A stretch of DNA of 64,000 nucleotides. Origin: Paracoccaceae bacterium (GTDB lineage Bacteria > Pseudomonadota > Alphaproteobacteria > Rhodobacterales > Rhodobacteraceae). Shown here piece by piece: positions 3,131 through 60,550 of this stretch; the stretch's first letter is position 1; every line of letters begins with the position of its first letter. The DNA is taken from NCBI GenBank assembly GCA_022448925.1, contig JAKVCP010000013.1:1-64000 (forward strand). Reading direction: 5' to 3'. Position numbers and translations under genes: made by a program. Under the pieces are notes generated by a model, which made no database searches, was not told the DNA's origin, and saw nothing but the letters and a program-made list of their open reading frames with translations.

Positions 3131-3134
3131 ACAC

Positions 3135-3920: not shown

Positions 3921-3990
3921 TGACAAATTCGCTATCGTCGCTGTTTGCTTTGTCATAAGCTGGCTCAAAAAAATGAGCAGGTTGCAACAT

Positions 3991-4485: not shown

Positions 4486-5030
4486 CTGTCAAAACCAAGG
4501 GGCTCGGCCATGGCCGGTTTGCCCATCACCATGACCCACCAGATCTTTCCGTTTTGCTCTTGGTACCATGCAAAGCCCATGTCACGCGCCTCTGGTCCAA
4601 GGATGATGCGACGGGTGTTTTCATCTTCCATCCAGGCGCCCAGTGTCTCCATCTCGGTCTCATAGGTCTCTGAGATGTTTTCACCCATCAAGACCCCCCG
4701 GTAGCCCACGCGTGCTGCCCGGTCGATCGGCGAAGACCCGTCAGAGCCGAAATGCCAGGGGCGGTTCTGCAAAGACATGTCCCGCGCATGCGTCGCCGCA
4801 GCGGCGTTGAGTTGGGCGTTGAAGGCCACAGGGTCAGCGCCAGCAGCGCCGCGCAGGGCGTTCACGGAGTCAAGCACTCGAAACTGGATTCGGCCCGAGT
4901 TTGCCGACGAAATCCTGTAAAGTTTCGGCAGCGGCTTGCCATCAGCCGCCAGGACCTGGGGCTGTTGCGTTGTCGTTGTGCATCCAGCAACCGACACAAG
5001 AATCAAGAAAAGTCCAAGAATTACACGCAT
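4482..5030 (-). CDS. CAP (SCP/PR1)-domain lipoprotein
   Basis: A 182-residue predicted lipoprotein with lipobox SVAGC (Cys17). Residues 50-175 form a bacterial CAP/SCP domain: THARDMSLQNRPWHFG near 87-102 supplies the first conserved His, GENISETY near 124 is the GEN motif, and the end reads GFAWYQEQNGKIWWVMVMG. Bacterial CAP proteins are secreted and some bind lipids or peptidoglycan, but no common enzymatic activity is known. Its convergence with the YkuD lipoprotein and its head-to-head position with the second L,D-transpeptidase suggest a role in envelope maintenance; that is inference. Confidence 0.82.
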   Translation of the reverse strand: MRVILGLFLILVSVAGCTTTTQQPQVLAADGKPLPKLYRISSANSGRIQFRVLDSVNALRGAAGADPVAFNAQLNAAAATHARDMSLQNRPWHFGSDGSSPIDRAARVGYRGVLMGENISETYETEMETLGAWMEDENTRRIILGPEARDMGFAWYQEQNGKIWWVMVMGKPAMAEPLGFDS

Positions 5031-5197
5031 GTTCGCCCGCTAGCCAATGGTCATCTCCCTGTCTGTAGCCTGCAAGCCGTTGCCTTTCAAACCCACATGC
5101 GCGTGAGTTGCCCAGATGACAGGTGTTTGATTTGCGACTGCGACTTTCGCGCCATAATGTCGTCGCATCACAAATTCCGCCCGAGGGAGCCATAGCC

Positions 5198-5791
5198 ATG
5201 CGTCGAAAGACATATTTGAGCCGCCGCAATTTTTTGGCCAGCAGTGCGGCCACATTGGCAGCACCTGCGCTGGCGCAGGAAACCTTTGACCCGGACACCA
5301 CGGAAGTGGAACGCGATCTGTCAAAGGTTGTGCGCCGCAATATCAGCAGTTTTCGCGCATTGGATTGGCAGCCCTATTTTGCCAGCCTGAAGAAAGGTGC
5401 CATTCTGGTTGATATCGATTCGCGGGCGCTGCACTACTGGCAAGCCGACGGTCAGTATCATCTTTACCCCTCGTCGGTACCCTTGACCGAAGACCTGACA
5501 CGCCGCGGTCGAACCAGCGTGATCCGCAAGGTCGAGGGACCGTCCTGGGCCCCGACACCCGCCATGAAGGTCCGCAACCCAGAATGGCCCGACTTTGTAG
5601 GCCCCGGCCCTGACAACCCCCTTGGCACGCATGCGCTTTATCTGGGTTGGAAATATTACAGGATCCACGGCACCCATGATACGCGCAAAATTGGCCGCAG
5701 ATCGTCAAACGGGTGCATCGGCCTTTACAACGAGCACATTGCGCAGCTGTTCGGGATGGCAAAAGTTGGCACGCAGGTGTTGCTAATTTGA
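5198..5791 (+). CDS. Tat-exported L,D-transpeptidase (YkuD family)
   Basis: A 197-residue periplasmic enzyme that would make or remodel L,D cross-links in peptidoglycan. It begins with a twin-arginine signal (SRRNFLASSAATLAAPALAQ, residues 8-27), less usual for this family, which is mostly Sec-exported. The YkuD domain spans about 65-197 and contains YRIHGTHD (His157 and His160) and RSSNGCIGLYN with nucleophile Cys173. The DNPLGTHALYLG segment before it is also typical. ATG 5198 is chosen because GAGGGAG precedes it by about nine bases and the twin-arginine signal starts here. About 165 bases separate it from the divergent CAP gene. Confidence 0.9.
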   Translation: MRRKTYLSRRNFLASSAATLAAPALAQETFDPDTTEVERDLSKVVRRNISSFRALDWQPYFASLKKGAILVDIDSRALHYWQADGQYHLYPSSVPLTEDLTRRGRTSVIRKVEGPSWAPTPAMKVRNPEWPDFVGPGPDNPLGTHALYLGWKYYRIHGTHDTRKIGRRSSNGCIGLYNEHIAQLFGMAKVGTQVLLI

Positions 5792-5942
5792 CGACATTTC
5801 GGCGATCCTCAGAGGCGCGCAAGAAACTTAAGTTTGCATTCTCAGGGATTTGCTGATTAAAAAATCTCACGAGGTAAGTCTTGGGTGCTTGTCGTATTTT
5901 TCCACCATGGGGGAACGGCAGGCGTAATACTGGAGGATAGTT

Positions 5943-21617: not shown

Positions 21618-22211
21618 AAGAGAACAACACCCTGACCACAGGTGTATCTCACTCCCCAGCTGCATCAGTTGCAGATCCAACCCATAAATCCGGTCCGACA
21701 TGCCATCATTGCAAGTTGCACGCCGCACAGTACCTGACAGTGTTACACTGCCCTGAGCAACAAACCCGAAAACATCAGATCGATTTGCAGATCGACCAAA
21801 CTGGAAAAGGGTCAGCGCCAACATCGGGTCCGTGAAGCGGTCAAAATGAACCTCGTTGTCGGGTTTCAGATCCAGTGTCCAGAATGGCTCGGTTGCAAAA
21901 CAACTCAGAGGCAAGGGCAGAACCGCACCTTCTGTCCCCTCGCGCCGGACCAGGAATTTCATCGACACCCAGCCGCTACGTTCGGCTGAGTTCACCTGGC
22001 CCCATGTGCCGCGCGCATTCAGGGCAATCACTTCTACCATCTTGTCGGTTGGCAGCAGCTCTCCCACTTTTTCAGAGCCCGCATCGGGAGCAGCACGGAT
22101 GTTCAAAACATCATCTGCAGCCACGCCGATCACATCATAAAGTGCGGGGAACACGTCAGCTCTGGCGGCAGTCGCAGTCAGGGTCAAAACGATCAGAAAC
22201 GCTCGGATCAT
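21612..22211 (-). CDS. Exported SH3b-domain protein with COG3650-like C-terminal domain
   Basis: A 199-residue exported protein. A signal peptide (MIRAFLIVLTLTATAARA) precedes a bacterial SH3 domain (about 26-90) with VLNIRAAPDAGSEKVGEL and GWVSMKFL, a fold that usually binds peptidoglycan. The C-terminal half (SCFATEPFWTLDL near 104, then GTVRRATCNDGMSD) resembles the small COG3650 beta-barrel domain of periplasmic proteins. ATG 22211 is used because it starts the signal peptide. It overlaps the upstream ABC-2 permease gene by four bases, so they are probably co-translated. Function unknown. Confidence 0.78.
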   Translation of the reverse strand: MIRAFLIVLTLTATAARADVFPALYDVIGVAADDVLNIRAAPDAGSEKVGELLPTDKMVEVIALNARGTWGQVNSAERSGWVSMKFLVRREGTEGAVLPLPLSCFATEPFWTLDLKPDNEVHFDRFTDPMLALTLFQFGRSANRSDVFGFVAQGSVTLSGTVRRATCNDGMSDRIYGLDLQLMQLGSEIHLWSGCCSLK

Positions 22212-23029
22212 CTGCGTGCACTCCAAGAGGCAGAGGCATGTTTGCGGGTATAGAACTCTGCCATAAGGCCAACCATGAACAGCACGATCCCCAACACCAA
22301 AGGATATTCCCAGTTGCTCTTGTGTGGGTTGTAATCAACAAATGCGTAGCCGCGACATTGATCAATGGCATGAAACAGCGGGTTCCAGACAAAGAACGGC
22401 AGCATGAAACCGGGCAATTGATTTGCAACAAACATCTTGCCAGAGGCAATCATGTTGGCGCGTTGATAGATGGTCGACACGATATTGACGACTGTTGGAA
22501 ACCAGGGCTTGGCAGCGAGAAGCACAACACCAATGGCTGCGCCGGTAAACCAACTGAGCAGCACCATCGCCAAACTGCCAACCGGATCCTGAATCGAAAT
22601 CGGCGTGATCGCCGCGTGGTAGACAAACAGGATCACCACCAGCGACAGCACTTGGATGTAAAGAGAACTGATCATCGCCGAGGCAATGGAAATCGCCGTA
22701 TTCATGGGCGCATGCTGCATCATTGGGCTGGCTGGCCCCTCAGATCCGACAACAGCGCTTAGGGTCTTTACATGGGTCATGTAAAGAAAGATCCCGGTCA
22801 TGATGTATACCATGAAATCGCCACGCAATGCCGCGCCGCGCAGACCAAGGATAGAGAACAAAAGATAGAAAGCCAGAACGAAAATAATGGTCTGCAGCAT
22901 GTTCATCAGGATCGACATCGCGGCATTGCCATGTGTCTTGCGAATGGCCCGAACCGAATTGTGATAGATCAATTCGAGTATATAGAGCGCAGATTCAAGA
23001 CGCGTCTTCGGTGCCGAAGGTTGAAACAT
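22208..23029 (-). CDS. ABC-2 type polysaccharide-export permease (KpsM/Wzm-like)
   Basis: A 273-residue membrane protein with about six spans, of the ABC-2 permease family that exports capsule, O-antigen or teichoic-type glycans. The N-terminal TRLESALYILELIYHNSVRAIRKTHGN amphipathic region, the FVYHAAITPI segment and the end HAIDQCRGYAFVDYNPHKSNW (KpsM-like) support this. The partner ATPase (KpsT/Wzt) is not adjacent. The only ABC-2-type ATPase here is at 44894-45823, over 20 kb away, and it looks like a drug-type subunit. It overlaps the SH3b gene by four bases, and the divergent cysQ starts about 130 bases away. Confidence 0.8.
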   Translation of the reverse strand: MFQPSAPKTRLESALYILELIYHNSVRAIRKTHGNAAMSILMNMLQTIIFVLAFYLLFSILGLRGAALRGDFMVYIMTGIFLYMTHVKTLSAVVGSEGPASPMMQHAPMNTAISIASAMISSLYIQVLSLVVILFVYHAAITPISIQDPVGSLAMVLLSWFTGAAIGVVLLAAKPWFPTVVNIVSTIYQRANMIASGKMFVANQLPGFMLPFFVWNPLFHAIDQCRGYAFVDYNPHKSNWEYPLVLGIVLFMVGLMAEFYTRKHASASWSARR

Positions 23030-23158
23030 GCCGTTGCTGCTCCGGATCTGCGGCGCTTGTCTGGCGGGGCCGCTTGCCGTTCTGAGATGTCGATATCATA
23101 AGGTGCACAACACGTTTAATCAATGAAACTGCGCGGGCGCAGGTCAAAGGAGACAACA

Positions 23159-23956
23159 TTGGACTATCAGAAATTAACCCACGTAATGCGAACCCTGGCC
23201 CTGGAAGCCGGCGACAAGATCATGGAGATCTACAATTCGAACGATTTCGAAGTAAAGTCCAAGTCTGATGACAGTCCCGTTACAGCTGCGGATGAAGCGG
23301 CAGATGCGTTGATTTCCACTGGGCTGCGTCTGGCCTTTCCCGACATCGCTTTGGTTACGGAAGAGCAAGCCGACAGCCATGACATCAGCGCCAAGACGTT
23401 TTTGATTGTGGATCCGCTTGATGGAACCAAGGAATTTGTGCACCGGCGGGGTGACTTCACTGTCAATATCGCACTCGTCGAAGACGGCGTTCCGACCCGT
23501 GGCGTCGTCTACGCCCCGGCCAAGGACCGAATGTTTTATACAAACAGCGACGGCGCCGCACTCGAAGAGTTGGGCCCGTTCGACAAAGAGACGGTTGGGC
23601 AAACCAAAAAGATCCGGGTTGCCGACAGTGACAATTCCGCGCTTATGGTCGTTGCGTCGAAATCACACCGCGATCAAGCGACCGATACCTACATCGGAAA
23701 ATATCAGGTCAAGGACATGAAAAGCGCAGGATCTTCGTTAAAATTCTGTCTTGTGGCGACGGGCGAGGCGGACATTTATCCGCGTGTTGGTCGCACCATG
23801 GAATGGGACACTGCGGCCGGCCATGCGGTCTTGGCCGGTGCCGGTGGCGCAGTGGTTCGGTTTGACGACCACAGCCCGCTTGTCTATGGCAAGGAGGGTT
23901 TCGCCAATCCTTTCTTTATTGCCCATGCACCATCGGTTGATCTGAAGACAGCCTGA
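23159..23956 (+). CDS. cysQ: 3'(2'),5'-bisphosphate nucleotidase CysQ
   Basis: A 265-residue inositol-monophosphatase-superfamily enzyme that converts PAP (3'-phosphoadenosine 5'-phosphate) to AMP. PAP is the by-product of sulfation by PAPS-dependent sulfotransferases and of assimilatory sulfate reduction. The metal-binding motifs are TEEQ with Glu69 (66-69), DPLDGTKEF (85-93) and WDTAAGHAV near 217. I choose TTG 23159 rather than the ATG 36 bases upstream because AAAGGAG lies six to seven bases before it and the result is the normal family length. Placement beside galU and not far from two sulfotransferase genes suits disposal of PAP. Confidence 0.9.
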   Translation: MDYQKLTHVMRTLALEAGDKIMEIYNSNDFEVKSKSDDSPVTAADEAADALISTGLRLAFPDIALVTEEQADSHDISAKTFLIVDPLDGTKEFVHRRGDFTVNIALVEDGVPTRGVVYAPAKDRMFYTNSDGAALEELGPFDKETVGQTKKIRVADSDNSALMVVASKSHRDQATDTYIGKYQVKDMKSAGSSLKFCLVATGEADIYPRVGRTMEWDTAAGHAVLAGAGGAVVRFDDHSPLVYGKEGFANPFFIAHAPSVDLKTA

Positions 23957-24187: not shown

Positions 24188-25078
24188 ATGAGTAACAAGG
24201 TGACCAAGGCTGTCTTTCCAGTGGCTGGATTGGGCACACGGTTCTTGCCGGCGACAAAATCTGTTCCAAAAGAAATCATGACCCTCGTCGATCGCCCTTT
24301 GGTGCAATACGCCATTGACGAAGCACGCGCGGCTGGCATCACAGAGTTCATCTTTGTGACGGCGCGCGGGAAAAGCGCGCTTGAAGATTATTTCGACAAC
24401 ATGCCAGCCTTGGAAGACGAGTTGCGCAGAAAGGGCAAGACCGACCTTCTGGAAACGCTGCAAGCCACCAACATGGAAAGCGGAACGATTGCCTATATTC
24501 GGCAACACAGAGCGCTTGGATTGGGCCATGCAGTCTGGTGTGCGCGGCGGCTGATTGGCGATGAACCCTTTGCAGTGATGCTGCCAGATGACGTGATCGC
24601 CGCTGAAAAACCCTGTCTTGCCCAGATGGTAGAGGCCTACCAAGAGACCGGCGGAAGCATGGTCGCTGCAATGGAAGTGCCCCATGATCAAACCTCTGCA
24701 TATGGTATTCTGGATGTGCAAGAAGACATGGACGCGTTGGTGTCTGTGCGGGGGATGGTCGAAAAACCTGCCGAGGGACGCGCGCCCTCAAACCTTGCCG
24801 TTATTGGTCGCTACATCCTTAATCCCTCGGTTCTGGAAAATCTGAATGCGATGAAGCAAGGGGCCGGCGGTGAAATCCAATTGACCGACGCCATCGCCCA
24901 GGACATTCGCGGCCCAAACAATGTCTATGGCTATCGTTTTCGTGGCCAGCGCTTTGACTGCGGCTCAAAGGCGGGTTTCCTGCAAGCCACGGTGGCCTTT
25001 GGGCTGGCCCGCGCTGATCTGAGGGACGATCTGACATCCTTTTTGCAAGAGATCATGATCGCACAGGCTGCGGAGTGA
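24188..25078 (+). CDS. galU: UTP-glucose-1-phosphate uridylyltransferase
   Basis: A 296-residue nucleotidyltransferase that makes UDP-glucose from UTP and glucose-1-phosphate. The N-terminal KAVFPVAGLGTRFLPATKS (6-24) and IPKEM-like VPKEIMTLVDRPLVQYAID (25-43) are signatures. The active-site region includes VMLPDDVIAAEKP near 132-144 and AYGILDV; the C-terminal RFDCGSKAGFLQATVAFGL is also typical. ATG 24188 follows AAGGG. galE starts about six bases after the stop, so galU and galE supply UDP-glucose and UDP-galactose to the glycosyltransferases that follow. Confidence 0.96.
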   Translation: MSNKVTKAVFPVAGLGTRFLPATKSVPKEIMTLVDRPLVQYAIDEARAAGITEFIFVTARGKSALEDYFDNMPALEDELRRKGKTDLLETLQATNMESGTIAYIRQHRALGLGHAVWCARRLIGDEPFAVMLPDDVIAAEKPCLAQMVEAYQETGGSMVAAMEVPHDQTSAYGILDVQEDMDALVSVRGMVEKPAEGRAPSNLAVIGRYILNPSVLENLNAMKQGAGGEIQLTDAIAQDIRGPNNVYGYRFRGQRFDCGSKAGFLQATVAFGLARADLRDDLTSFLQEIMIAQAAE

Positions 25079-25084
25079 TCGTCA

Positions 25085-26068
25085 GTGGCGCATGTTCTTG
25101 TCACCGGCGGTGCAGGCTATATCGGCTCGCATGCGTGCAAGGCTCTGGCACGGGCCGGGTTCACACCCGTCACCTTTGACAGCCTTGTCACCGGCTGGAG
25201 AGACGCAGTCAAGTTCGGCCCACTGGTCGAGGGCGATTTGACCGACCGCGCCCTGCTTGACCGGGTGTTTGCAGATTATCGCCCGGTTGCTGTCATGCAT
25301 TTTGCCGCGCTCAGTCTTGTCGGCGAAGCCATGGCCGAACCCGGAAAATACTGGCGCAACAACGTGATGGGTTCTTTGACCCTGATCGAGGCGGCAGCGG
25401 CGGCAGGGTGCAGGAATATTGTCTTTTCATCAACATGTGCAACCTACGGTGACCACGACAGTGTGGTTCTGGATGAGAATACGACCCAACGGCCGTTGAA
25501 CGCATACGGGGCCAGCAAACGGGCGATAGAAGACATTCTTCAAGACTTCGACGCCGCGTATGACCTGCGCCATGTCATTTTTCGCTACTTCAACGTCGCC
25601 GGCGCCGACCCCGATGCCGAAGTAGGTGAACATCATCGTCCTGAAACGCATCTGATCCCGGTCATTTTCGAGGTCATCGAAGGTCGCCGCAACACGTTGA
25701 CGATTAACGGCGAAGATTATGACACGCCCGATGGCACCTGCATTCGGGACTACGTGCATGTGTGTGACCTGGTGGATGCCCATATCCTGGGCCTGAATTG
25801 GTTGCAGGAGGGCAATTCAAGCCGGGTGTTCAACCTGGGCACTGGGCAAGGCTTTTCCAACCGCGAGGTGGTCGAGACCACGCAGACAGTCACAAACCGC
25901 AACCTGCCTTGGACTATCGGCCCACGTCGAATGGGAGATGCAACCAAGCTGGTCTCGGGATCTTTGCGCGCACAGACAGAGCTTGGGTGGACGCCGAAGC
26001 GATCTGATCTGCGACAGATGATCGGTGACGCCTGGCGCTGGCACCAGACGGGACATTACGATAGCTAG
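25085..26068 (+). CDS. galE: UDP-glucose 4-epimerase
   Basis: A 327-residue NAD-dependent epimerase that interconverts UDP-glucose and UDP-galactose. The NAD motif is TGGAGYIGS (7-15). The catalytic residues are visible as Ser115/116 in FSSTCATYG and the YGASK motif with Tyr141 and Lys145. FRYFNVAGADPD (about 160-171) and GTCIRDYVHVCDL (218-230) mark a GalE of the extended SDR family. GTG 25085 is the only start that includes the Rossmann motif fully; it lies seven bases after the galU stop. The next gene starts six bases after its stop, so a single operon is likely. Confidence 0.95.
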   Translation: MAHVLVTGGAGYIGSHACKALARAGFTPVTFDSLVTGWRDAVKFGPLVEGDLTDRALLDRVFADYRPVAVMHFAALSLVGEAMAEPGKYWRNNVMGSLTLIEAAAAAGCRNIVFSSTCATYGDHDSVVLDENTTQRPLNAYGASKRAIEDILQDFDAAYDLRHVIFRYFNVAGADPDAEVGEHHRPETHLIPVIFEVIEGRRNTLTINGEDYDTPDGTCIRDYVHVCDLVDAHILGLNWLQEGNSSRVFNLGTGQGFSNREVVETTQTVTNRNLPWTIGPRRMGDATKLVSGSLRAQTELGWTPKRSDLRQMIGDAWRWHQTGHYDS

Positions 26069-26074
26069 GTCGGT

Positions 26075-27088
26075 ATGACGCGGACGGGGTATTGGGTGGC
26101 CTATAAACTGCGGTGGCAACGCCGCAAACTTCTTTGGCGCGCGCTGCGCAGCAGGCATGCCCTCAAGGCGATCAACATCCGCACGGATTGCATTGGCAGA
26201 AATGATATCCTTTGCGTGATGACCCTGCGCAACGAAATGCTGCGTCTGCCCTATTTCCTAAAGCACCACCGCGCATTGGGCGTCGATCACTTCCTGATCG
26301 TGGACAACGGCAGCACCGATGGCACCACCGATTGGCTGGCGCATCAGACCGATGTTTCTTTGTGGGGCACGACCGCCAGTTATCGCGCTGCGCGCTTTGG
26401 GGTAGATTGGACGACGTGGTTGCAAATGCGGTTTGCTCATGGACACTGGTGTCTTGTTCTGGATGCAGACGAATTGCTGGTTTACGACGGCTGCAGCAGT
26501 CGCGACCTGCACGGATTGACCGCCGCGCTTGACACACGGCGGATCGAAGGGTTTGGCGCCTTGATGGTTGATTTGTACCCCAAAGGTCCGGTGAGCAACG
26601 CAACTTATACCAGCGGCAGCGATCCGACCCACTGCCTGCACTGGTTTGATCCGGGCCCCTTCCGGGTTGTGCGACAATGGCCAAAACAGAACCTGTGGGT
26701 GCAGGGCGGTGTCCGTGACCGGGTGTTCTTTGCCTCTGAGGCCAGCAAGGCGCCCACTTTGAACAAGCTGCCGCTGATGCGATGGCACCGGCGTTATGCC
26801 TGGCTCAACTCTTGTCATTCCGCCCTGCCTGCCCGTTTGAACCTGCTTTATGAAGGACCGGACAGCACAGGGCCCGCGGGCGCCCTTCTACATACAAAGT
26901 TTCTGCCGGACGTGACCAAGCGCGCCCGCGAAGAAAAGGTACGTCGACAACATTTCAACAGGCCGCGCGCATTCGACGGCTACTATGACGAAGTCGCGAG
27001 AGGACCGGATCTGTGGTGGGACGGTGCTCAGCGTTATACCGGTCCTGAAAGTCTGGTGCAGGCAGGACTCATGCCTCGACTTGACTGA
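26075..27088 (+). CDS. Glycosyltransferase, family 2-like (first of tandem pair)
   Basis: A 337-residue GT-A-type enzyme of the Glyco_tranf_2_4-like group. The N-terminal part is basic (KLRWQRRKLLWRALRSR), and the fold begins near residue 45 with CVMTLRNEMLRLPYFLKHH. FLIVDNGSTDGT (73-84) is the nucleotide-binding motif, and LDADELLVY (129-137) supplies the DxD-like acid residues. Other conserved segments are ASYRAARFGVDW, LYPKGPVSN and LPLMRWHRR. No membrane span is present. The donor and acceptor cannot be deduced. The next gene is a clear paralogue, indicating tandem duplication. Confidence 0.85.
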   Translation: MTRTGYWVAYKLRWQRRKLLWRALRSRHALKAINIRTDCIGRNDILCVMTLRNEMLRLPYFLKHHRALGVDHFLIVDNGSTDGTTDWLAHQTDVSLWGTTASYRAARFGVDWTTWLQMRFAHGHWCLVLDADELLVYDGCSSRDLHGLTAALDTRRIEGFGALMVDLYPKGPVSNATYTSGSDPTHCLHWFDPGPFRVVRQWPKQNLWVQGGVRDRVFFASEASKAPTLNKLPLMRWHRRYAWLNSCHSALPARLNLLYEGPDSTGPAGALLHTKFLPDVTKRAREEKVRRQHFNRPRAFDGYYDEVARGPDLWWDGAQRYTGPESLVQAGLMPRLD

Positions 27089-27172
27089 AAGGGCCCAGAC
27101 ATCTTTCGCTTTCCTTCAGGTCCTTGTGGCTTAGACTGTGGCACACCACGCAGAGGGACCTGAGCAGGCAGA

Positions 27173-28183
27173 ATGGGCATACTACAGTCATATCACATGC
27201 GTTTGCGCCGCAAGAGACTGTTGTTTCGCGCGCTGCGCAAAGACAGAGAGTTGCGCCCGGTCACCAACCGGACGGAACTTGTCCGCCCAGGTGATGTGTT
27301 GCTGTTCTCCACTCAGCGCAACGAACTGCTGCGTCTGCCATTTTTCCTGAAATACTACCGCGACATGGGTGTGAACCACTTCTTTATCGTGGACAACGAC
27401 AGCACCGATGGCGCCACAGCCTATCTGGAGGCACAGCCGGACGTGTCGCTTTGGTCAACGCAAGCCAGCTACAAGCGGTCACGGTTCGGCGTGGACTGGT
27501 TGAATGGCCTGCAACGCAGGTACGGCGACGGGCATTGGTGCCTGGTTGCGGACCCAGACGAGTTCTTTGTTTACCCTTTTTGTGACAGCCGCCCGATCCG
27601 CGCTTTGACCGACTGGCTGGACACCTGCGGCATCCGGTCGTTCGGGGCAATGCTTCTTGATATGTATCCCAAGGGCGGGATCAACGATGAACCGTACCGC
27701 GCTGGACAGGATCCGCTTGAAATTGCGCATTGGTTCGATGCCGGCAACTATTCGATCACTCGCAACCACCAATATGGCAACCTATGGATCCAAGGCGGCC
27801 CAAGAGCGCGCACCTTCTTTGCCGATAAACCCAAGTCCGCGCCCGCCTTGAACAAGATCCCTTTGGTAAAATGGAGCAGACATTACGCCTACGTCAGTTC
27901 AACCCACAATCTGTTGCCGCGCGGACTGAACCAGGTTTATGAGATCAGTGGAGGTGAAAAGGCGTCTGGTCTGATGCTGCACATGAAGTTTCTCAACACT
28001 CTCGGCGAGAAGGCCAACGAAGAGTTGGCCCGCGGACAACACTATGGCGACGGGCGAGAGTATGCGGCCTATGCCGAGGGCGCGCGCCACAACCCAGATC
28101 TGTGGTGCAAATGGTCCGAGCGCTACATCAATTGGCGCCAACTGGAAATTCTGGGCCTTATGTCCAAGGGGAATTGGGCATGA
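27173..28183 (+). CDS. Glycosyltransferase, family 2-like (second of tandem pair)
   Basis: A 336-residue paralogue of the preceding enzyme: MRLRRKRLLFRALRKD matches its basic N-terminus, and RNELLRLPFFLKYYR, FFIVDNDSTDGAT (70-82), ADPDEFFVY (126-134), ASYKRSRFGVDWL and KIPLVKWSRHYAY repeat the same pattern. In the acidic motif Pro replaces Ala (DPDE against DADE), and the C-terminal tails differ, suggesting different acceptors or linkages. An 84-base gap precedes it, holding no obvious terminator. Its stop overlaps the ATG of the Core-2-type gene by four bases (ATGA), so expression is probably coupled. Confidence 0.85.
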   Translation: MGILQSYHMRLRRKRLLFRALRKDRELRPVTNRTELVRPGDVLLFSTQRNELLRLPFFLKYYRDMGVNHFFIVDNDSTDGATAYLEAQPDVSLWSTQASYKRSRFGVDWLNGLQRRYGDGHWCLVADPDEFFVYPFCDSRPIRALTDWLDTCGIRSFGAMLLDMYPKGGINDEPYRAGQDPLEIAHWFDAGNYSITRNHQYGNLWIQGGPRARTFFADKPKSAPALNKIPLVKWSRHYAYVSSTHNLLPRGLNQVYEISGGEKASGLMLHMKFLNTLGEKANEELARGQHYGDGREYAAYAEGARHNPDLWCKWSERYINWRQLEILGLMSKGNWA

Positions 28184-29880
28184 CGGTGGGAATTGTGATG
28201 TTGGTGCACACCGCTTTTGATCGCGCCGAGCAAGTTGCGCGGTATTGGGCAGCGGGGGGCTGCCCTGTGGTGGTGCACGTCGACAGCAACGTCTCTGTCA
28301 AGGTGTATCAGGCGTTTCAGCAGGCACTGTCAGATGTGCCCGGACTGAAGTTTTCCCGACGCCATCGGTGCGAATGGGGCAGTTGGGGCCTGGTTGCGGC
28401 CAGTCAAGATGCAGCCGGATTGATGCTACGTCAGTATCCTCAGGTCTCTCATGTGTACCTGAGTTCGGGATCCTGTCTGCCGCTTCGCCCGGTCAAAGAA
28501 CTACAAGACTATCTTGCCGACCGACCAGAAACAGACTTTATCGAAAGCGCCACGACTGCGGATGTACCGTGGACGGTTGGGGGACTGGATCAGGAACGGT
28601 TTACACTGCGCTTTCCATTTTCCTGGCGGCGACAACGCAAGTTATTTGACGCCTATGTGGCGCTGCAACGACGCCTGCGGGTAAAGCGGCGGATTCCCAA
28701 GGGTCTGGTTCCACATATGGGCAGCCAGTGGTGGTGCCTGACGCGCCGAACGCTCGAAGCGATTCTGACTGATCCCGACCGCAGTGTTCACGATCGCTAT
28801 TTCAAACGGGTCTGGATTCCCGATGAAAGCTATTTCCAGACGCTTGTGCGCCATGTTTCGCACACCATTGAAAGCCGCTCTCTGACGCTGTCAAAATTCG
28901 ATTTCCAAGGCAAACCTCATACTTTCTACGACGATCATCTTCAACTTCTGCGCCGGTCAGACTGCTTTGTTGCCCGCAAAATCTGGCCTCATGCCGATCG
29001 CCTGTACGAGACCTTTCTGACACACCCCAACCAGCTTCAGGACCGAAATGAGCCAAACCCGGGCAAGATCGACCGTATCTTTGCCAAGGCGGTGCACCGC
29101 CGCACCCGCGGGCGGCCCGGTTTGATCATGCAAAGCCGCCTGCCCAAGCAAGATTGGAACGGCGCTGTGACTGCCGCCCCCTATTCTGTTCTGCAGGGGT
29201 TTGACGATCTCTTTGTTGATTTCAAGAGCTGGCTTGAAACCGCGACCAATGCGCGTGTCCATGGCAGACTTTTTGCGCCTGACCGAGCCCGGTTTGCGGG
29301 GGCGGAAAACACCTTTAACGGGGCGCTGTCAGACAACGCCACGCTCAGGGATTACAACCCGCGCGCCTTTTTGACCAACTTGATCTGGAACACCCGAGGC
29401 GAGCCACAGTGTTTTCAACACGGACCCGGCGATACTCCACAGATCCTAGAGGTGATGGCCTATGACAGCAATGCGCGCATTTCGGTCATATCGGGTGCTT
29501 GGGCAGTGCCCTTGTTTCAATCCGGCACTGGTTTCATCGACATCCGCGATACTGCCGCACACTTGCAAAAGCTTGAAACAAAGCAACTGAGCCTTCTACG
29601 ATCACAGTGGGTCCGTGCCCATGTACGGATTTGGACCATGGCCGATTTCATCGAAGCGCCGATGGACATGCTAAAGCAGATTGTGGATGATGTCGGGCGA
29701 CGTCCAGGTCAGCGCCTGACCGAAGCACCGCAGATGGTCGATTTGAAGGGCTTTTCGGCGTTTCTGCAACGGCTGAAAAACGAGGGAATGCATCCGCATC
29801 TGATGGGCGATTTCTCGGTCAATCAGATGCCGCAGGGGACAAACCCTTCGTCCTTACGTCCCTATCTGGTGAAACGCTGA
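28180..29880 (+). CDS. Core-2/I-branching-type glycosyltransferase with long C-terminal domain (first copy)
   Basis: A 566-residue two-part protein. Residues 1-290 match the Core-2/I-branching (GT14, Branch) family: CEWGSWGLVAASQ (64-76), YLSSGSCLPLRP (93-104), MGSQWWCLTRR near 183, WIPDESYFQTLV near 213, FYDDHLQLL and ARKIWPHA. The second part (about 300-566) matches, by my recollection, the DUF5927 type of extension seen in Rhodobacteraceae; its role is unknown. Eukaryotic relatives add beta-1,6-GlcNAc branches and some bacterial ones add xylose. The copy at 42818 shares the motif order, so this is a paralogue pair. ATG 28180 overlaps the previous stop. The sulfotransferase follows three bases after its stop. 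Confidence 0.85.
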   Translation: MTVGIVMLVHTAFDRAEQVARYWAAGGCPVVVHVDSNVSVKVYQAFQQALSDVPGLKFSRRHRCEWGSWGLVAASQDAAGLMLRQYPQVSHVYLSSGSCLPLRPVKELQDYLADRPETDFIESATTADVPWTVGGLDQERFTLRFPFSWRRQRKLFDAYVALQRRLRVKRRIPKGLVPHMGSQWWCLTRRTLEAILTDPDRSVHDRYFKRVWIPDESYFQTLVRHVSHTIESRSLTLSKFDFQGKPHTFYDDHLQLLRRSDCFVARKIWPHADRLYETFLTHPNQLQDRNEPNPGKIDRIFAKAVHRRTRGRPGLIMQSRLPKQDWNGAVTAAPYSVLQGFDDLFVDFKSWLETATNARVHGRLFAPDRARFAGAENTFNGALSDNATLRDYNPRAFLTNLIWNTRGEPQCFQHGPGDTPQILEVMAYDSNARISVISGAWAVPLFQSGTGFIDIRDTAAHLQKLETKQLSLLRSQWVRAHVRIWTMADFIEAPMDMLKQIVDDVGRRPGQRLTEAPQMVDLKGFSAFLQRLKNEGMHPHLMGDFSVNQMPQGTNPSSLRPYLVKR

Positions 29881-29883
29881 CCA

Positions 29884-31323
29884 ATGCCACACTTCCGGAC
29901 ATTCGTGATCTTCGCAGAAATGCGCACCGGCTCAAACTTTCTCGAAGCAAATCTGAACGCGATCGAGGGCGTGTCTTGTCACGGCGAAGCGTTCAACCCA
30001 GCCTTTATCGGGCAGCCGAACAGATCGGAACTTTTGGGTGTGACAGAATCGGCGCGCAACAAGGACGCCCACCAACTGCTGAAAGAAATCAGAAAGGCGC
30101 CGGGACTGAACGGATTTCGCTTTTTTCATGATCATGATGCGCGGGTTCTGGATGATCTTTTGCAGGACCGGAAATGTGCCAAGATCATCCTGACACGCAA
30201 TCCGGCGGAAAGCTATGTCAGTTGGAAAATCGCACGCGAGACAGGTCAGTGGAAACTGACCAACATCCGCAACCGCCGGGACAGCACCGCCGAGTTTGAC
30301 GCTGAAGAATTCGAATCGCATCTGGCAACCTTGCAGGGATTTCAAATCAGATTGCTGACTGCGCTGCAGACCAGCGGTCAAACGGCTTTTTACATCGACA
30401 ACGAAGATCTCTCCAATGTTGACGTGATGAATGGCCTCGCCAAATGGCTTGGTGTGTCGGGCCGGCTGTCCAGTCTGAACACGGCAATCAAGCGGCAAAA
30501 TCCAAAGCCGCTGGATCACAAGGTGACCGAGCCCGAAAAGATGGCCGAAGCTCTGGCTCGCCTGGATCGCTTCAATCTGAGCCGGACACCCAATTTTGAA
30601 CCGAGGCGCGGGCCAATGGTGCCCAGCTATATTGCCGCCGCACAGGCGCCTTTGCTTTACATGCCGATTCAATCCGGGCCAGATGGATGCGTTTTGAAAT
30701 GGTTGGCTGCGCTTGACGGCTGTCCGCAAGCCGCGCTGAAAACCCGGTTCAGTCAAAAGAGCCTGCGCACCTGGATGGCGGAGCACCCAGGTCACAGGTC
30801 ATTTACCGTGGTGCGTCATCCTCTGGCCCGGGCGCATGCGGCATTCTGTAATCATATTCTGCCCACAGGTCCCGGTGCGATGATACGCATCCGTCGCACT
30901 CTTTGCCGAGCGCATGACCTGCAGCTTCCCAAGGATGGGCCGGACACAGACTATGACCGTGCAGCACACAGGGCAGCGTTTGCCCAGTGGCTGAAGTTTC
31001 TCAAAGCCAATCTTTCGGGTCAGACAGGTGTCCGTGTAGACGGGCATTGGGCATCACAGGTCCAGTTTCTGCAAGGCCTGTCGGATTTCAAACTGCCAGA
31101 TCTGATTTTGAGAGAAGGCGAAATCTCAGATGCTTTGCCCGCGCTGGCATTAAAAATCGGTGTGAATGACGCACCATTGCCAGGCAGTGACGATCCGGAA
31201 ACGCCCTTTTCGCTGGATGAGATCTACGATGATGAACTAGAGGATCTCGCGCGCGACGCATATTCACGCGATTATGTGATGTTTGGATTTTCCACTTGGC
31301 GTGCGGCCAATCAGGCGGCCTGA
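29884..31323 (+). CDS. Bimodular sulfotransferase-like protein
   Basis: A 479-residue protein with two sulfotransferase-like halves. The N-terminal half has the PAPS 5'-phosphosulfate loop AEMRTGSNFLE (11-21) and a 3'-phosphate motif LTRNPAESYVSWK (about 101-113), as in NodH-type enzymes. The C-terminal half starts with YMPIQSGPDGCVLKWLA (259-275) and continues with FTVVRHPLARAHAAFCNHIL (about 305-324), resembling the Sulfotransfer_2 fold. In that second loop the Lys that normally contacts the sulfate is replaced by Gln (PIQSG), so it may be inactive or altered. It ends tail-to-tail with ptsN, overlapping 13 bases. Confidence 0.8.
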   Translation: MPHFRTFVIFAEMRTGSNFLEANLNAIEGVSCHGEAFNPAFIGQPNRSELLGVTESARNKDAHQLLKEIRKAPGLNGFRFFHDHDARVLDDLLQDRKCAKIILTRNPAESYVSWKIARETGQWKLTNIRNRRDSTAEFDAEEFESHLATLQGFQIRLLTALQTSGQTAFYIDNEDLSNVDVMNGLAKWLGVSGRLSSLNTAIKRQNPKPLDHKVTEPEKMAEALARLDRFNLSRTPNFEPRRGPMVPSYIAAAQAPLLYMPIQSGPDGCVLKWLAALDGCPQAALKTRFSQKSLRTWMAEHPGHRSFTVVRHPLARAHAAFCNHILPTGPGAMIRIRRTLCRAHDLQLPKDGPDTDYDRAAHRAAFAQWLKFLKANLSGQTGVRVDGHWASQVQFLQGLSDFKLPDLILREGEISDALPALALKIGVNDAPLPGSDDPETPFSLDEIYDDELEDLARDAYSRDYVMFGFSTWRAANQAA

Positions 31324-35131: not shown

Positions 35132-36048
35132 GCCAGGCATCCTTTCTGAAATCCACGCTCGGGGCTTAATCTCAACGCGGTCCTTACGCAACTGAACCGG
35201 AGGGCAGCCTGCAGTGGTTTCGTTTTGGAAAGCGGGCAAGAGATTCGGCCAAATTGGACAAAATTTAGATATTTTCGAAACTTCATTCTGCGCAGAAGTT
35301 GCGTTTATCTCTCTTTTTATTTCATTTTGAAATATTTCGTTATTTTCGTCCGACCGGCCTTTATCATGCGTGGGTTTCGCCTCACTAGGGACAACGCACA
35401 GCGGATTTTTTGCCAAATTCACTGCGCTGTTTCAAAGAATTCGGGCCCGAGCAAACCGGCTATTGTTTCCATACTTCAGATAGCTCTGTGGGCGGCATTT
35501 CAGATCTGATCGATCAGAGTGTTCAAAAGCGCGAACGTTGTCCCGCCACAAAGGGTATTGTTTCAACCCGATCAACACTCTTTGACCGGCTGTTTCCAAT
35601 AAACAACTCATGAAACAGGGCCCACTCCGAATTTTGGTGTCGCTTACTGGGATTGAATGAACACAAAGGCCACTGTTCAAATATCCCAAGTGACACTGAA
35701 GACTCAACATCTCACCACACGTTAAGGTGCTAAATTGCTTATATTTTTCTTCCTTAAGTTGAACAATCCTTGGCCATATTGACTAAAAATCGCCTCAATT
35801 GCATAACGTATTGTGTAACGATTATGGCATGAAAGTGTCGACGTTCTCATCTGCACTGGGGCTGGTGCGTTTTTATTGAGGAGCCTGGTAAAGAGTTTCT
35901 GCGGTTCTCCGCAAGTTCCAAAGATTTCGCCGCGGGATCAAAGCGCAATCACACCCGAAACGGTTTCGAGTGAGTGGGACCTTGCGGCTGACGAACAGCA
36001 TACCTTTTGCCAAGCCTCATCAACGCGACCTCGAGGGGGGGCACAGTG
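35132..36048. other. AT-rich non-coding stretch of 0.9 kb
   Basis: I see no convincing gene here. A 92-codon minus-strand reading at 35432-35710 has no recognisable domain or good start. The stretch is markedly AT-rich, especially 35240-35350 and 35710-35830. The last 300 bases before the sugar-transferase gene could hold its promoter and operator; the sequence contains CTTAAG and repeated TAACG elements (35802-35820). This region separates the lpt/rnd block from the glycan gene. Confidence 0.5.
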
Positions 36049-36738
36049 ATGACACTGCATATGCGAAACTCAATGACGCACGCTGAGTTTGACAATCTCA
36101 TCGCAGATGCGCTGGCTCCTAAGCGCAAAGCAGCCATTTACCGGGACTACGCAAAACGGGCGTTGGATATCACTTTTGTACTTGCTGCTGCTGTGCCGGT
36201 TGTGATGATCCTGCTTGTGCTTGCCGCAATCATCTCCCTTGACGGAAAATCACCGTTTTATTTGCAAAAACGCGTCGGTCAGGGTGGGCGCATCTTCAAA
36301 ATGTGGAAACTGCGCAGCATGGTGCACAATGCCGATACGCTGCTCCAGGATTTTCTGGCCAGCAACCCAACGGCACGCACAGAGTGGGAGCGTACCCAGA
36401 AACTGCGGCACGATCCGCGCATCACCCGCGTTGGGCAGATGATCCGCAAGACCTCATTGGATGAACTTCCGCAACTCTGGAACGTGTTGCGTGGCGATAT
36501 GTCCTTGGTTGGTCCCCGCCCCATGATGATCGAACAGCAAAAGATCTATCCCGGCACAGCCTATTACGCCCTGCGCCCAGGCATCACGGGGTTCTGGCAA
36601 ACCTCTGTTCGCAACGACTCCAGTTTCGATGAGCGCGCGTTCTTTGACACGAACTACCTTCGCGAAGTGTCGTTGATCACTGACCTGCGGGTGCTTGCAC
36701 GGACAGTGATGGTTGTGGTGAACGGAACGGGTGTTTAA
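36049..36738 (+). CDS. ExoY-like undecaprenyl-phosphate sugar transferase
   Basis: A 229-residue membrane-anchored priming enzyme that transfers a sugar phosphate (often galactose or glucose) to undecaprenyl phosphate, the first step of many exopolysaccharides. An N-terminal span (about 41-64) is followed by FYLQKRVGQGGRIFKMWKLRSM, DPRITRVGQMIRKTSLDELPQLWNVL and MSLVGPRPMM, all of the bacterial sugar transferase (PF02397) fold. ATG 36049 (or GTG 36046) is used because of an upstream G-rich Shine-Dalgarno; the TTG at 36007 is unsupported. This enzyme is shorter than WbaP and lacks a polytopic N-terminal domain. A second such enzyme is at 58966. Confidence 0.9.
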   Translation: MTLHMRNSMTHAEFDNLIADALAPKRKAAIYRDYAKRALDITFVLAAAVPVVMILLVLAAIISLDGKSPFYLQKRVGQGGRIFKMWKLRSMVHNADTLLQDFLASNPTARTEWERTQKLRHDPRITRVGQMIRKTSLDELPQLWNVLRGDMSLVGPRPMMIEQQKIYPGTAYYALRPGITGFWQTSVRNDSSFDERAFFDTNYLREVSLITDLRVLARTVMVVVNGTGV

Positions 36739-41878: not shown

Positions 41879-42697
41879 TCAGCCCCCCAGTTTTGCATGC
41901 ACCTCATCAAGATCGATCTCTCCCGTGGGCATCTTGTTGGCGGGGTTTTCGAAATCATATTTGAAGAGGCGAAAGTCGCGTTTGTAGATTTCATAGACCA
42001 GATGCATCGAGAGATCGTCGAAATAGTCTTCAACCGGGTGGGCGCGTTTCGGACCATGACCCTCGGACTCATTGAAACGGGGGATCTGTGTCAGGTCAAC
42101 CTTGTGCGCAGGGGTGACAGCATCCAGAACCGTCTGCATGCCTTCGTTGAATTCTTCGGTCCAGATGATCCGATCATAGCGTCCACCGTTGGCCACGAAC
42201 GTTCCGACGTGACCTGACACCGCCGACCAATGAATGTCCGGATCCATCGGACGGCGCCAGCGAATGGTATCGCGCGCAAACAGCAGAAAGCGACGAAAGC
42301 TCTGGACCTGATCGAACTCTGCCGCGCCATCCTCGCCGCCAACATCGATCCCGTATTTTTGCATCAACATTGGCACGAGATTGCCGCGATAGCGGCGGCC
42401 GTTGCGCTGAATTCCGCAAATCTTGTCAAAAAATGCGCTAAGGATCCGGGTGTAGGGATTTCTCACACAGGTAAAGGCATAAGACAGATGCGACTCTACG
42501 TTTGAGGTGATGGCACCCTTGCTGGCGTCGATGCCCCATTTGTGCAGACCCTCTTGCGCGTCATGAATATCACCGTCGAAAAACCGCCCGTGATCCGAGT
42601 AGTACATGATCTGGCCAATGGTCGAACACGCGCATTTGGGAACAACGCGATACACCATGCTTTGGCTTTTGGTCATCCAGGTGCCGGGAAAGCCCAT
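41879..42697 (-). CDS. Sulfotransferase family 2 protein
   Basis: A 272-residue cytoplasmic sulfotransferase-like protein that would transfer sulfate from PAPS to a carbohydrate. The PAPS loop is VVPKCACSTIGQIMYY (about 17-32), with Lys; the 3'-phosphate motif is AFTCVRNPYTRILSAFFDKI (about 73-92). Such Sulfotransfer_2 proteins in bacteria act on capsules or exopolysaccharides; the acceptor here is inferred to be a glycan because a Core-2-type gene starts 120 bases away in the other direction. It ends tail-to-tail with the kinase gene. A Lys is intact, unlike the second half of the bimodular protein. Confidence 0.86.
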   Translation of the reverse strand: MGFPGTWMTKSQSMVYRVVPKCACSTIGQIMYYSDHGRFFDGDIHDAQEGLHKWGIDASKGAITSNVESHLSYAFTCVRNPYTRILSAFFDKICGIQRNGRRYRGNLVPMLMQKYGIDVGGEDGAAEFDQVQSFRRFLLFARDTIRWRRPMDPDIHWSAVSGHVGTFVANGGRYDRIIWTEEFNEGMQTVLDAVTPAHKVDLTQIPRFNESEGHGPKRAHPVEDYFDDLSMHLVYEIYKRDFRLFKYDFENPANKMPTGEIDLDEVHAKLGG

Positions 42698-42817: not shown

Positions 42818-44395
42818 TTGGCAAAGATCGCGTTCATACTGCTGTGTCACAAGGATCCTGAGGCGATTGTCAAACAGGCACAAAGCCTGACGTCTGCGGG
42901 AGATTATATTGCCATTCACTTTGATGCGCGCGCCAGCAGGGCCGCCTATGCACAGATCAGGGCCGCGCTGAAGACCAACCCCAATGTCACCTTCACAACA
43001 CCGCGGTGCAAATGCGGCTGGGGTGAATGGTCACTGGTGCAGGCAACGCTGCACACTTTGAAAGCCGCCGTTTCTGCCTTTCCAAGGGCCAGTCACTTTT
43101 ACATGCTGTCTGGTGACTGCATGGCGATCAAGTCTGCCGAATACGCAAAGGCCTTTCTTGATGACCGTGACATGGATTACATTGAAAACCATGACTATTT
43201 CCAAAGCGACTGGATCAAGACAGGTTGGAAAGAAGAACGGCTGATCTATCGTCACTGGTTCAATGAACGCACTCAGAAACGCCGTTTCTATGCCATGTTC
43301 AATCTGCAGAAACGACTGGGCCTGACACGCGCAATTCCGGCTGACATCACCGTCAGGATTGGCAGTCAATGGTGGTGTCTCAGACGGCGGACAGTAGAAG
43401 CCATTTTGAACTTTGCCCGCAACCGGCCCGATGTGACCCGCTTTTTTGCAACCACCTGGATTCCAGATGAAACGTTTTTTCAAACACTGGTGCATCACAT
43501 GATCCCAACATCTGAGATCGAGAACCGCACGCTGACTTTCCTGATGTTTTCCGATTACGGAATGCCCGTTACCTTTTATAACGACCATTATGGTTTGCTG
43601 TTGGGCCAGGATTTTCTGTTTGCCCGCAAAATCAGCCCCGAGGCAACCGATCTGAAACGGCGGCTTTCGGTACTTTTTGCCTCCGAGGGCACGGATTTCC
43701 CGATCTCCAACGAAGGCCACGCCCTTTATCACTTTCTCACCAATCGCGGACGCGTTGGGCGACGGTTTGCGCAACCGTTCTGGAAACAGGAATCGAGCCT
43801 TGGCCGCGATCGCGAACTGATGATCGTTGCTTCCAAGAAATGGGATGTCGCCAAACGTCTGATCGCGCGCATCCGCGAAATGACCAACCTGCCGTGCATC
43901 GAATATCTGTTCAACGAAGAGGCCACCGTCCTGCCCGACCTGGGCGGCATTCAAACGTCGATGATCAAGCGCAACCGGCATCGAAGAGCATTGATGCGGA
44001 TGCTGTTTGATTTCCACCGAACCAACCGTTTGGTCATCTGCATCGATCCCAGCAGCCTTGACCTGATCGAGGATTTTGCCGCTGACCGGTCGACCACGCG
44101 GATCCTTGAAATCGACACACAGTTCTCTGACGCGTATCTGGCCGGCCATGCCACCCGCATCGGACTTGCAGGGGATCAGACCTCGGCCGAGGCACTGAGC
44201 CGTTTACTGCCAACTATTCGCAGGGACATCACGCATGATTCTGATCAGCTGCGGGACAGAGAGTTCAAATATTTCAACCGCTTGCGCGAAGGTGCAGATC
44301 CTGCCGAAAACGCCCGCCACCTGGCTGCATTTTTGGCCCTCTCACTGGACCAGGCCGCGGAAATTGCCGAAACACCCAACCTTTTCAACGACTAA
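42818..44395 (+). CDS. Core-2/I-branching-type glycosyltransferase with long C-terminal domain (second copy)
   Basis: A 525-residue paralogue of the protein at 28180. The glycosyltransferase part has CGWGEWSLVQATL (65-77), MLSGDCMAIKS near 95, IGSQWWCLRRRT near 181, WIPDETFFQTLV and ARKISPEA, in the same order. The C-terminal part (about 285-525) differs and matches, by recollection, the DUF5928-type extension. It starts with a TTG (42818) behind a weak purine-rich site. It opens AFILLCHKDPEA, typical of the Branch family N-terminus. It is divergent from a sulfotransferase, reproducing the pairing at 28-31 kb. The HIT gene follows. Confidence 0.85.
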   Translation: MAKIAFILLCHKDPEAIVKQAQSLTSAGDYIAIHFDARASRAAYAQIRAALKTNPNVTFTTPRCKCGWGEWSLVQATLHTLKAAVSAFPRASHFYMLSGDCMAIKSAEYAKAFLDDRDMDYIENHDYFQSDWIKTGWKEERLIYRHWFNERTQKRRFYAMFNLQKRLGLTRAIPADITVRIGSQWWCLRRRTVEAILNFARNRPDVTRFFATTWIPDETFFQTLVHHMIPTSEIENRTLTFLMFSDYGMPVTFYNDHYGLLLGQDFLFARKISPEATDLKRRLSVLFASEGTDFPISNEGHALYHFLTNRGRVGRRFAQPFWKQESSLGRDRELMIVASKKWDVAKRLIARIREMTNLPCIEYLFNEEATVLPDLGGIQTSMIKRNRHRRALMRMLFDFHRTNRLVICIDPSSLDLIEDFAADRSTTRILEIDTQFSDAYLAGHATRIGLAGDQTSAEALSRLLPTIRRDITHDSDQLRDREFKYFNRLREGADPAENARHLAAFLALSLDQAAEIAETPNLFND

Positions 44396-55924: not shown

Positions 55925-56129
55925 CCCATCCACCTTTCGCCCCACGGGTCAGGGTTTAAACGGCAGAGGTTTCCGCCGGGTTAAACACTGCATTCAACAG
56001 AAAATGACCACGTCTTTCCTTGCGTGTTGAAATTCACACAAAAAAAGCTTCCACAACCCTCATTTCGTGGACTTGCTGTGGTTTGTCGCGTAGCAAGTGT
56101 TGGAACAAGTTGTTTTACAGGACGAAACA

Positions 56130-58963: not shown

Positions 58964-58965
58964 CA

Positions 58966-60467: not shown

Positions 60468-60550
60468 CAAACGCAGCCTGTCTATCAACCTTCCAACCCG
60501 CTAGAAAGACGCGTAAATGAAGGGCAAATTAGAAGCCGGGGACGCGGACC

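Follow-up and report, generated by a model that had tools for sequence, protein, structure and literature searches.

The stretch of DNA considered here, 64,000 nucleotides of contig JAKVCP010000013.1 from a Paracoccaceae bacterium (assembly GCA_022448925.1) and referred to below as the window, raises the question of what is made by an operon at positions 24,188 to 31,323, in which genes for nucleotide sugar synthesis, glycosyltransferases (GTs), a Core-2/I-branching-type enzyme (Branch) and a sulfotransferase (Sulf) follow one another. The original prediction, made from the letters of the window alone, proposed a branched, sulfated surface glycan and regarded the operon as a candidate for an undescribed system. 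We consider it likely that the operon encodes the enzymes that build and modify the chain of a group 2 (Kps) capsule, which is exported by an ATP-binding cassette (ABC) transporter, primed with 3-deoxy-D-manno-oct-2-ulosonic acid (Kdo) and encoded at several dispersed loci in the Rhodobacteraceae. The position of a KpsM-like permease gene beside the operon and the joint presence and absence with KpsC/KpsS point to this kind of capsule, so that the idea of a free-standing undescribed system was not borne out. The product of the pathway is probably a sulfated sugar coat with its anchor in the outer membrane, and the capsule would usually be sulfated, i.e., in most lineages. The observations behind this assignment are the gene identities, which were assigned by similarity, the gene order, the conservation throughout the family and a coordinated absence.

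Conservation of the operon in the Rhodobacteraceae

The composition of the operon was confirmed by the coordinates and the family matches (Table 1): galU, galE, the two GTs (GT-A1 and GT-A2, 46% identical), Branch and Sulf run in one direction with gaps of 6, 6, 84, -4 and 3 bases in this order, and cysQ ends 231 bases upstream of galU, as had been proposed, with a TIGR01331 match above the cut-off. The earlier description had omitted a divergent KpsM-like permease gene, whose VexB and KpsM matches both lie under the NCBIfam equivalog cut-offs, as well as a second Branch gene with a C-terminal DUF5928 and the sulfotransferase gene divergent from it (Sulf2). The C-terminal domain of the first Branch enzyme had been called long and uncharacterised; it carries a Pfam name, DUF5927 (PF19349), which served as a marker of the operon. 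From the order, 292 genomes were sampled, which all belong to the single family Rhodobacteraceae and represent 113 genera; PF19349 was matched in 283 genomes and 107 genera, with a single match in all but three. A match was called intact at E <= 1e-40, which holds for 282 genomes and takes in some divergent copies and one shortened copy (G117); the match in G075 is a fragment (1e-8) and was left out. PF19349 was found in none of 284 alphaproteobacteria outside the Rhodobacteraceae, the four matches in this sample of 288 being the genome of the window and three relatives. Among the open-licence PubMed Central (PMC) papers searched, none of the titles listed describes the operon, and the names DUF5927 and DUF5928 were found in none.

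The neighbourhood comparison across Rhodobacterales that had been called for beforehand was based on 106 loci of 20 kb (L037-L142), mostly one per genus and with weak matches included, in which an ortholog was counted at a coverage of at least 75%. GT-A2 and Branch were found in 104 loci each, Sulf in 103, cysQ in 99, kpsM in 98, galU in 96, ptsN in 91 and galE in 57, and GT-A1 was the best match in 23. The six genes kpsM, cysQ, galU, GT-A2, Branch and Sulf occur together in 90 of the 106 loci, so the linkage held, and the first part of the outcome named in advance as a refutation, that the genes are not linked elsewhere, did not occur. Of 103 loci, 82 have GT-A2 and Branch overlapping by exactly four bases; between Branch and Sulf the median gap is three bases (102 loci). 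This arrangement is more than chance. A GT4-type gene of about 409 amino acids recurs on the same strand, roughly in the slot of GT-A1, in 56 of the 106 loci, and a GT2 gene on the same strand in 55; from these counts, the operon consists of a fixed core and variable slots. The gene for the CMP-Kdo synthetase, kdsB, precedes Branch by about 5.2 kb on the same strand in 72 loci, and one representative was identified by profile (341.9 bits, cut-off 234). Apart from the decayed locus L142, described below, kpsM is missing in seven loci, of which three (L047, L079, L107) are cut by contig ends and four (L037, L065, L131, L135) have the GT-A2-Branch-Sulf part separate from kpsM-cysQ.

The same loci bear on another destination of the product, namely that the operon feeds the Wza/YjbH-type exopolysaccharide encoded at 56.1-61.7 kb of the window. 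Genes for YjbH, a Poly_export/Wza protein and a sugar transferase do share the window with the operon. However, no such gene recurs in the 20-kb loci, which carry kpsM and often kdsB. Since loci of this size would not reach 25 kb away, this absence is a weak argument, and we regard the exopolysaccharide as a very improbable destination.

Association with Kps genes and coordinated absence

The genes expected of a Kps capsule accompany the operon through the family. PF05159 (KpsC/KpsS) was matched at 2.4e-42 or better in all 282 genomes with intact DUF5927, as opposed to three of the ten genomes without it at E <= 1e-40 (G110, G227 and G141; about 1e-66). Among the others of these ten, G174 (1.9e-12), G075 (1.7e-6) and G060 (weak) gave lesser matches, and no PF05159 match was obtained in G085, G094, G156 and G232. 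The resulting table (282/0 and 3/7 at 1e-40) has a Fisher value of 3.6e-12, uncorrected for relatedness. This locus was read in 16 genomes with intact DUF5927, all of which have kpsC, a Poly_export/SLBB (KpsD-like) gene and kpsS grouped beside rib genes, the latter named by eye. The kpsC of these genomes is 47-100% identical to that of G002 and is present as two open reading frames in L157; kpsD or kpsS of L153, L162, L165 and L170 was identified by tblastn, and the stretch L169 holds just a different KpsC/S locus of G251. The genome of the window (G000) has its copy at C118:480-5063, with a dual-module KpsC of 674 amino acids containing four PF05159-matched stretches. The KpsD-like Poly_export/SLBB protein is encoded between KpsC and KpsS, and KpsS is matched by PF05159 too and scores 231.8 bits with NF050054 (cut-off 600). 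A KpsT-like gene adjoins a KpsE-like gene (TIGR01010 164.4 bits, cut-off 437.5) in each of eight genomes examined, and in seven of these KdsA is their neighbour; no KdsA match was obtained in the KpsT-KpsE stretch fetched from the genome of the window.

The ten genomes without intact DUF5927 lack more than this one gene. They were all included in searches for orthologs of KpsM, GT-A2 and Sulf in 19 of the 292 genomes, of KpsT in 18 and of Sulf2 in 24. KpsM and GT-A2 were each present in nine of nine genomes with intact DUF5927 and in none of the ten without it, where the best matches were 2.1e-8 for KpsM and 1.8e-21 with 30% identity for GT-A2; Sulf was present in seven of nine and none of ten, respectively. 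At E <= 1e-20, six of the ten (G060, G085, G094, G156, G174, G075) gave no KpsT match. The KpsT proteins of G110 and G227 are 34-35% identical to the query, that of G232 belongs to another class (55%), and G141 is the source of the query. In G075, the operon can be seen in a decayed state (L142): cysQ, galU and galE are kept at 72-77% identity, GT and Branch remain as short fragments, DUF5928 and Sulf2 are fragments as well, KpsM and Sulf are gone, and there is no proper KpsC/S match. Other members of the genera of G075 (g24), G060 (g37) and G094 (g52) carry DUF5927, KpsC/S and DUF5928, and all ten genomes are listed as 99-100% complete.

These losses could be explained differently if each gene were simply a core gene, so that linkage and co-presence had no functional meaning, and the genes disappeared together through genome reduction or assembly gaps. 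Such an explanation would suit the many near-universal genes of the region, the small number of losses and the shared ancestry of the genomes, which are not independent cases. Against this, the four-base overlap has been kept in most loci, G075 retains the housekeeping genes of the operon while the glycan genes decay, and the listed completeness of the ten genomes is high, which makes mere neighbourhood quite improbable in our view. More weight, though still that of an unlikely alternative, is given to a role in lipopolysaccharide (LPS), in which the operon decorates the O-antigen or core with a sulfated glycan that is exported by the second ABC exporter of the genome or by a Wzx flippase, so that the operon would be linked to Kps only indirectly. 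The closest sequence to the N-module of Sulf in the PDB is annotated as an LPS sulfotransferase, lptA/B/C-like genes (named by eye) lie downstream of the operon in about 90 of the 106 loci, and the genome of the window holds a second KpsMT-like pair. However, the genes that are absent jointly with the operon are KpsM and KpsC/KpsS, the KpsM gene lies within the locus, and the lptC-like neighbour persists in L142 although the operon has decayed.

Several findings weigh against the Kps capsule assignment itself. The losses comprise only 10 genomes of 9 genera, and the statistics are uncorrected for phylogeny. KpsM, KpsS, KpsE and KpsT all score under the NCBIfam equivalog or subfamily cut-offs and are distant matches. 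The capsule genes occupy at least three separate loci, with the copies of the window's genome on contigs C35, C58 and C118, so that the classical Kps trait of a single cluster with conserved outer regions is not found in these dispersed parts. A second KpsT-like/KpsM-like pair is located on contig C117 of G000 (2563-5868), and its permease is only 23% identical to KpsM of the window; it possibly serves a separate ABC-exported glycan, and with it the pairing of KpsM and KpsT is not proven. Three genomes without the operon (G110, G227, G141) carry other KpsC/S genes. The KpsS-like genes of G141 and G110 share 28-33% identity with KpsS of G002, the KpsC of G110 is 40% identical, and the KpsC/S stretches of both gave no kpsD-like match; the genes of these two genomes probably belong to another capsule. 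G174 has a lone KpsC (41% identical) between rib genes, with neither KpsS nor KpsD (L166, 8492-10333), which is either a partial loss or a counter-example. Sulf is missing in 2 of 104 Branch-bearing loci (L116, L139), so that sulfation is not universal. Finally, a plasmid search (14 records) yielded Branch-type proteins on three Shinella plasmids, with 36% identity over Branch residues 61 to 437-449, and on a Rhizobium tropici plasmid, with 31% over residues 1-402. Distant relatives whose similarity extends into DUF5927 thus occur beyond the Rhodobacteraceae.

With these reservations, a Kps capsule remains the preferred explanation, and from the gene content we infer the individual reactions, the sugars and linkages, the sulfation sites and the use of this KpsM/KpsT pair for export. 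CMP-Kdo would come from KdsA and from KdsB, whose gene stands at the operon locus in many relatives, and KpsS and KpsC would use it to make a phospholipid-linked Kdo primer. The known counterparts divide this work, with KpsS attaching the first Kdo to phosphatidylglycerol and KpsC adding further Kdo (PMC12220298, excerpt), and export there proceeds by KpsMT with KpsE and KpsD (PMC11041684, excerpt). GalU and GalE would provide UDP-Glc and UDP-Gal, the PF13704 GTs and the two GT14 enzymes with DUF5927 and DUF5928 would extend the chain, and the bimodular Sulf and the separate Sulf2 would add sulfate from 3'-phosphoadenosine 5'-phosphosulfate (PAPS), with CysQ clearing the by-product 3'-phosphoadenosine 5'-phosphate (PAP). 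KpsM, together with KpsT, KpsE and the outer-membrane KpsD-like protein, would then export the polysaccharide.

GT14 enzymes and sulfotransferases

The Branch enzyme was modelled with a mean predicted local distance difference test (pLDDT) score of 85.1 and a predicted template modelling (pTM) score of 0.75. The model superimposes on murine C2GnT-L (3otk) with Z 27.0 over 271 residues and a root-mean-square deviation (rmsd) of 3.0, and on human xylosyltransferase 1 with Z 23.5-24.4; the latter is also the best match among solved sequences (1.1e-9). Full-length models were used in the fold search, the matches of which span residues 1-296 of Branch and 3-235 of Sulf. According to the model, Branch residues 1-289 have the fold of glycosyltransferase family 14 (GT14), and PF02485 spans residues 31-247. 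In an alignment of 67 Branch sequences (the window and 66 of 104 orthologs), P214, D215, E216, R266 and K267 are invariant, of which we take the PDE motif to contain the conserved acid and R266/K267 to be the basic UDP-binding residues. The matches to both C2GnT-L and xylosyltransferase 1 leave UDP-GlcNAc and UDP-Xyl as candidate donors. Of the predicted branched, sulfated surface glycan, the conserved assembly unit with a sulfotransferase and cysQ is supported, whereas "branched" derives only from the family name, and GT14 includes xylosyltransferases.

The model of Sulf (pLDDT 93.2, pTM 0.57) has two modules. The N-module superimposes on Stf0 (1tex) with Z 13.2 over 192 residues (rmsd 3.6), and its closest PDB sequence is 9vki, deposited as "LPS sulfotransferase NodH" (8.3e-14); the PF00685 match in this module reaches 17.2 bits and is under its cut-off of 22. 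Residues 13-18 (MRTGSN), R105 and S113 are invariant in 64 of 64 Sulf sequences (the window and 63 of 103 orthologs). Presumably, MRTGSN is the 5'-phosphosulfate loop and R105/S113 belong to the 3'-phosphate site, so the N-module appears to have intact PAPS motifs. The C-module, of the Sulfotransfer_2 type, is related to the stand-alone Sulf2 (hhalign 94.6%), where the matching loop reads PKCACS in 79 of 80 rows, the remaining row being gapped. In the C-module, this loop has no lysine position: P261 (64/64) is followed by I, V, L or M at 262 (63/64), and the rest varies (G264 in 44, G265 in 46 and P266 in 49 of 64). The 3'-phosphate site is largely kept, with H312 and P313 in 64, R316 in 63 and R311 in 51 of the 64 sequences, and is therefore still compatible with PAP binding. 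These residues suggest a C-module that binds but does not catalyse.

DUF5927 itself gave a weak hhalign match to the N-module of Sulf (probability 41%, score 34.8). The highest control score was 27.1, obtained with 100 column shuffles, 60 block shuffles and the profile in reverse, and none of the 160 shuffles reached 34.8. The DUF5927 profile showed no similarity to the C-module of Sulf or to Sulf2 (0.3% each). DUF5927 may therefore be a worn-down sulfotransferase domain, which is put forward as a lead.

The second GT14 gene and Sulf2 follow the loss pattern of the operon and are for this reason placed in the same pathway. DUF5928 is intact in 276 of the 282 genomes with intact DUF5927 and in none of the ten without it (Fisher 7.5e-15). 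Sulf2 was present in eight of eight tested genomes with intact DUF5928 and intact in none of the ten without intact DUF5927. In the six exceptions that have intact DUF5927 and no intact DUF5928 (G098, G134, G187, G198, G258, G291), four lack Sulf2 and two have a divergent copy (43% and 46% identity). Of 80 DUF5928 loci, 79 contain Sulf2, and in 63 it was scored as running divergently at a distance within 600 bases. The best 80 of 589 matches of the DUF5928 protein carry names such as Sulfitobacter, Roseovarius, Salipiger, Ruegeria and Roseivivax, and one is a metagenome bin titled Rhodopirellula. The DUF5928 profile showed no similarity to sulfotransferases or DUF5927.

A more far-reaching idea, which we consider doubtful and offer only tentatively, is that the Rhodobacteraceae share a single sulfated, Kdo-anchored surface glycan that hardly varies and forms a conserved core or linker, unlike a serotype-variable capsule, with variable GTs adding strain-specific parts. 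Its conserved builders would be GT-A2 and the two GT14 enzymes; the C-terminal domains of the latter would be particular to this pathway, and at least DUF5927 would be a worn-down sulfotransferase used for acceptor recognition. If this were true, it would be a family-defining surface molecule and in principle a shared layer for adhesion or for the reception of phages or gene transfer agents.

Comparison with known systems and further genes of the window

Capsule genes are usually variable, and the roseobacters, which belong to the Rhodobacteraceae, are among the commonest surface-attached marine bacteria. A sulfated capsule with genes in about 97% of the sampled genomes (282/292) would be a family-wide surface trait, and its near-invariant gene set contrasts with the hypervariable capsules known from pathogens. 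The assignment offers a candidate function for the Pfam families DUF5927 and DUF5928 and names gene targets (the two DUF families, the bimodular sulfotransferase and kpsM/C/S) with possible roles in algal attachment, in the binding of phages and gene transfer agents, and in the supply of sulfated organic matter to the sea.

By analogy, the system would work like known Kps and sulfated capsules. With the group 2/3 Kps capsules of E. coli and other Gram-negatives, it shares homologs of KpsM, T, E, D-like, C and S, KdsA and often a nearby KdsB. It differs from them in its distribution over three or more loci rather than a single cluster and in its distant Kps matches, in a content that varies mainly in galE and some GT slots, and in GT14 enzymes and a bimodular sulfotransferase that are conserved across a family. 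Sulfated capsules are described, in the excerpts available, for Cobetia marina KMM 1449, with kps, sulfotransferase, cysQ and PAPS genes (PMC11766843), and for Vibrio sp. KMM 8419, with kps and sulfotransferase genes (PMC11641403). In these excerpts, as here, kps export genes occur together with sulfotransferase genes, and in Cobetia cysQ is present as well, there beside PAPS synthesis genes and kpsSC; the clusters, however, run to about 70-80 genes, among them a rhamnose operon and genes for PAPS synthesis, and vary between strains, as opposed to the small, near-invariant operon with GT14 described here. At the level of single enzymes, Branch residues 1-289 share the fold of C2GnT-L and xylosyltransferase 1 in a bacterial protein that is fused to DUF5927 or DUF5928, and Sulf resembles Stf0/NodH (1tex, 9vki) in the fold of the N-module and the PAPS-binding motifs, and differs by a second module with a degenerate loop that resembles Sulf2.

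The Rhodobacter capsulatus gene transfer agent (RcGTA) receptor cluster rcc01081-01086 is a rhodobacterial capsule locus as well, which according to the excerpt is absent from strain 37b4 and has wzc/wzb/wza export (PMC10218006), whereas the operon described here is near-universal and linked to Kps. Identity with this cluster was rejected on the described export partners and strain variability, the two being set apart by description only. In Ruegeria pomeroyi, a small fitness effect of -0.18 is given for kpsS (SPO1757) in one co-culture (PMC10041152, excerpt), which neither proves nor excludes a role of the capsule.

Table 1. Features of the window discussed in the text, with their positions in the window and the family matches obtained.
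Feature	Position	Strand	Family matches and remarks
KpsM-like ABC-2 permease	22208..23029	-	divergent from cysQ; NCBIfam VexB 1.6e-10, KpsM 2.2e-7; PF01061 0.086
cysQ, 3'(2'),5'-bisphosphate nucleotidase (PAP removal)	23123..23956	+	TIGR01331 269.4 bits, cut-off 228.8
galU, UTP-glucose-1-phosphate uridylyltransferase	24188..25078	+	TIGR01099 334.8 bits, cut-off 326.8
galE, UDP-glucose 4-epimerase	25085..26068	+	TIGR01179 403.7 bits, cut-off 262.3
GT-A1, PF13704 glycosyltransferase, variable slot	26075..27088	+	PF13704 110.9 bits
GT-A2, PF13704 glycosyltransferase, conserved	27173..28183	+	PF13704 113.8 bits
GT14 (Branch) glycosyltransferase, 566 residues, C-terminal DUF5927	28180..29880	+	PF02485 66.4 bits (cut-off 23.4), PF19349 483.8 bits
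DUF5927 domain (Branch residues 266-565, about 300 residues)	28975..29874	+	PF19349
Bimodular sulfotransferase (Sulf), 479 residues	29884..31323	+	PF00685 residues 7-114; PF03567 residues 302-470
Second sulfotransferase (Sulf2)	41879..42697	-	PF03567 124.5 bits; divergent from DUF5928 gene
Second GT14 (Branch) enzyme, C-terminal DUF5928	42818..44395	+	PF02485 80.1 bits, PF19350 403.9 bits

Two further sites of the window contain glycan genes. At 56097-61654, YjbH, a sugar transferase and a Wza-type export protein were identified by Pfam and a lipoprotein and an epimerase by eye; these exopolysaccharide genes are a polysaccharide system different from the operon. A bacterial sugar transferase (PF02397) is located at 36007-36738, apart from other glycan genes, and a sugar transferase of this family occurs in only one (L179) of the 80 DUF5928 loci.

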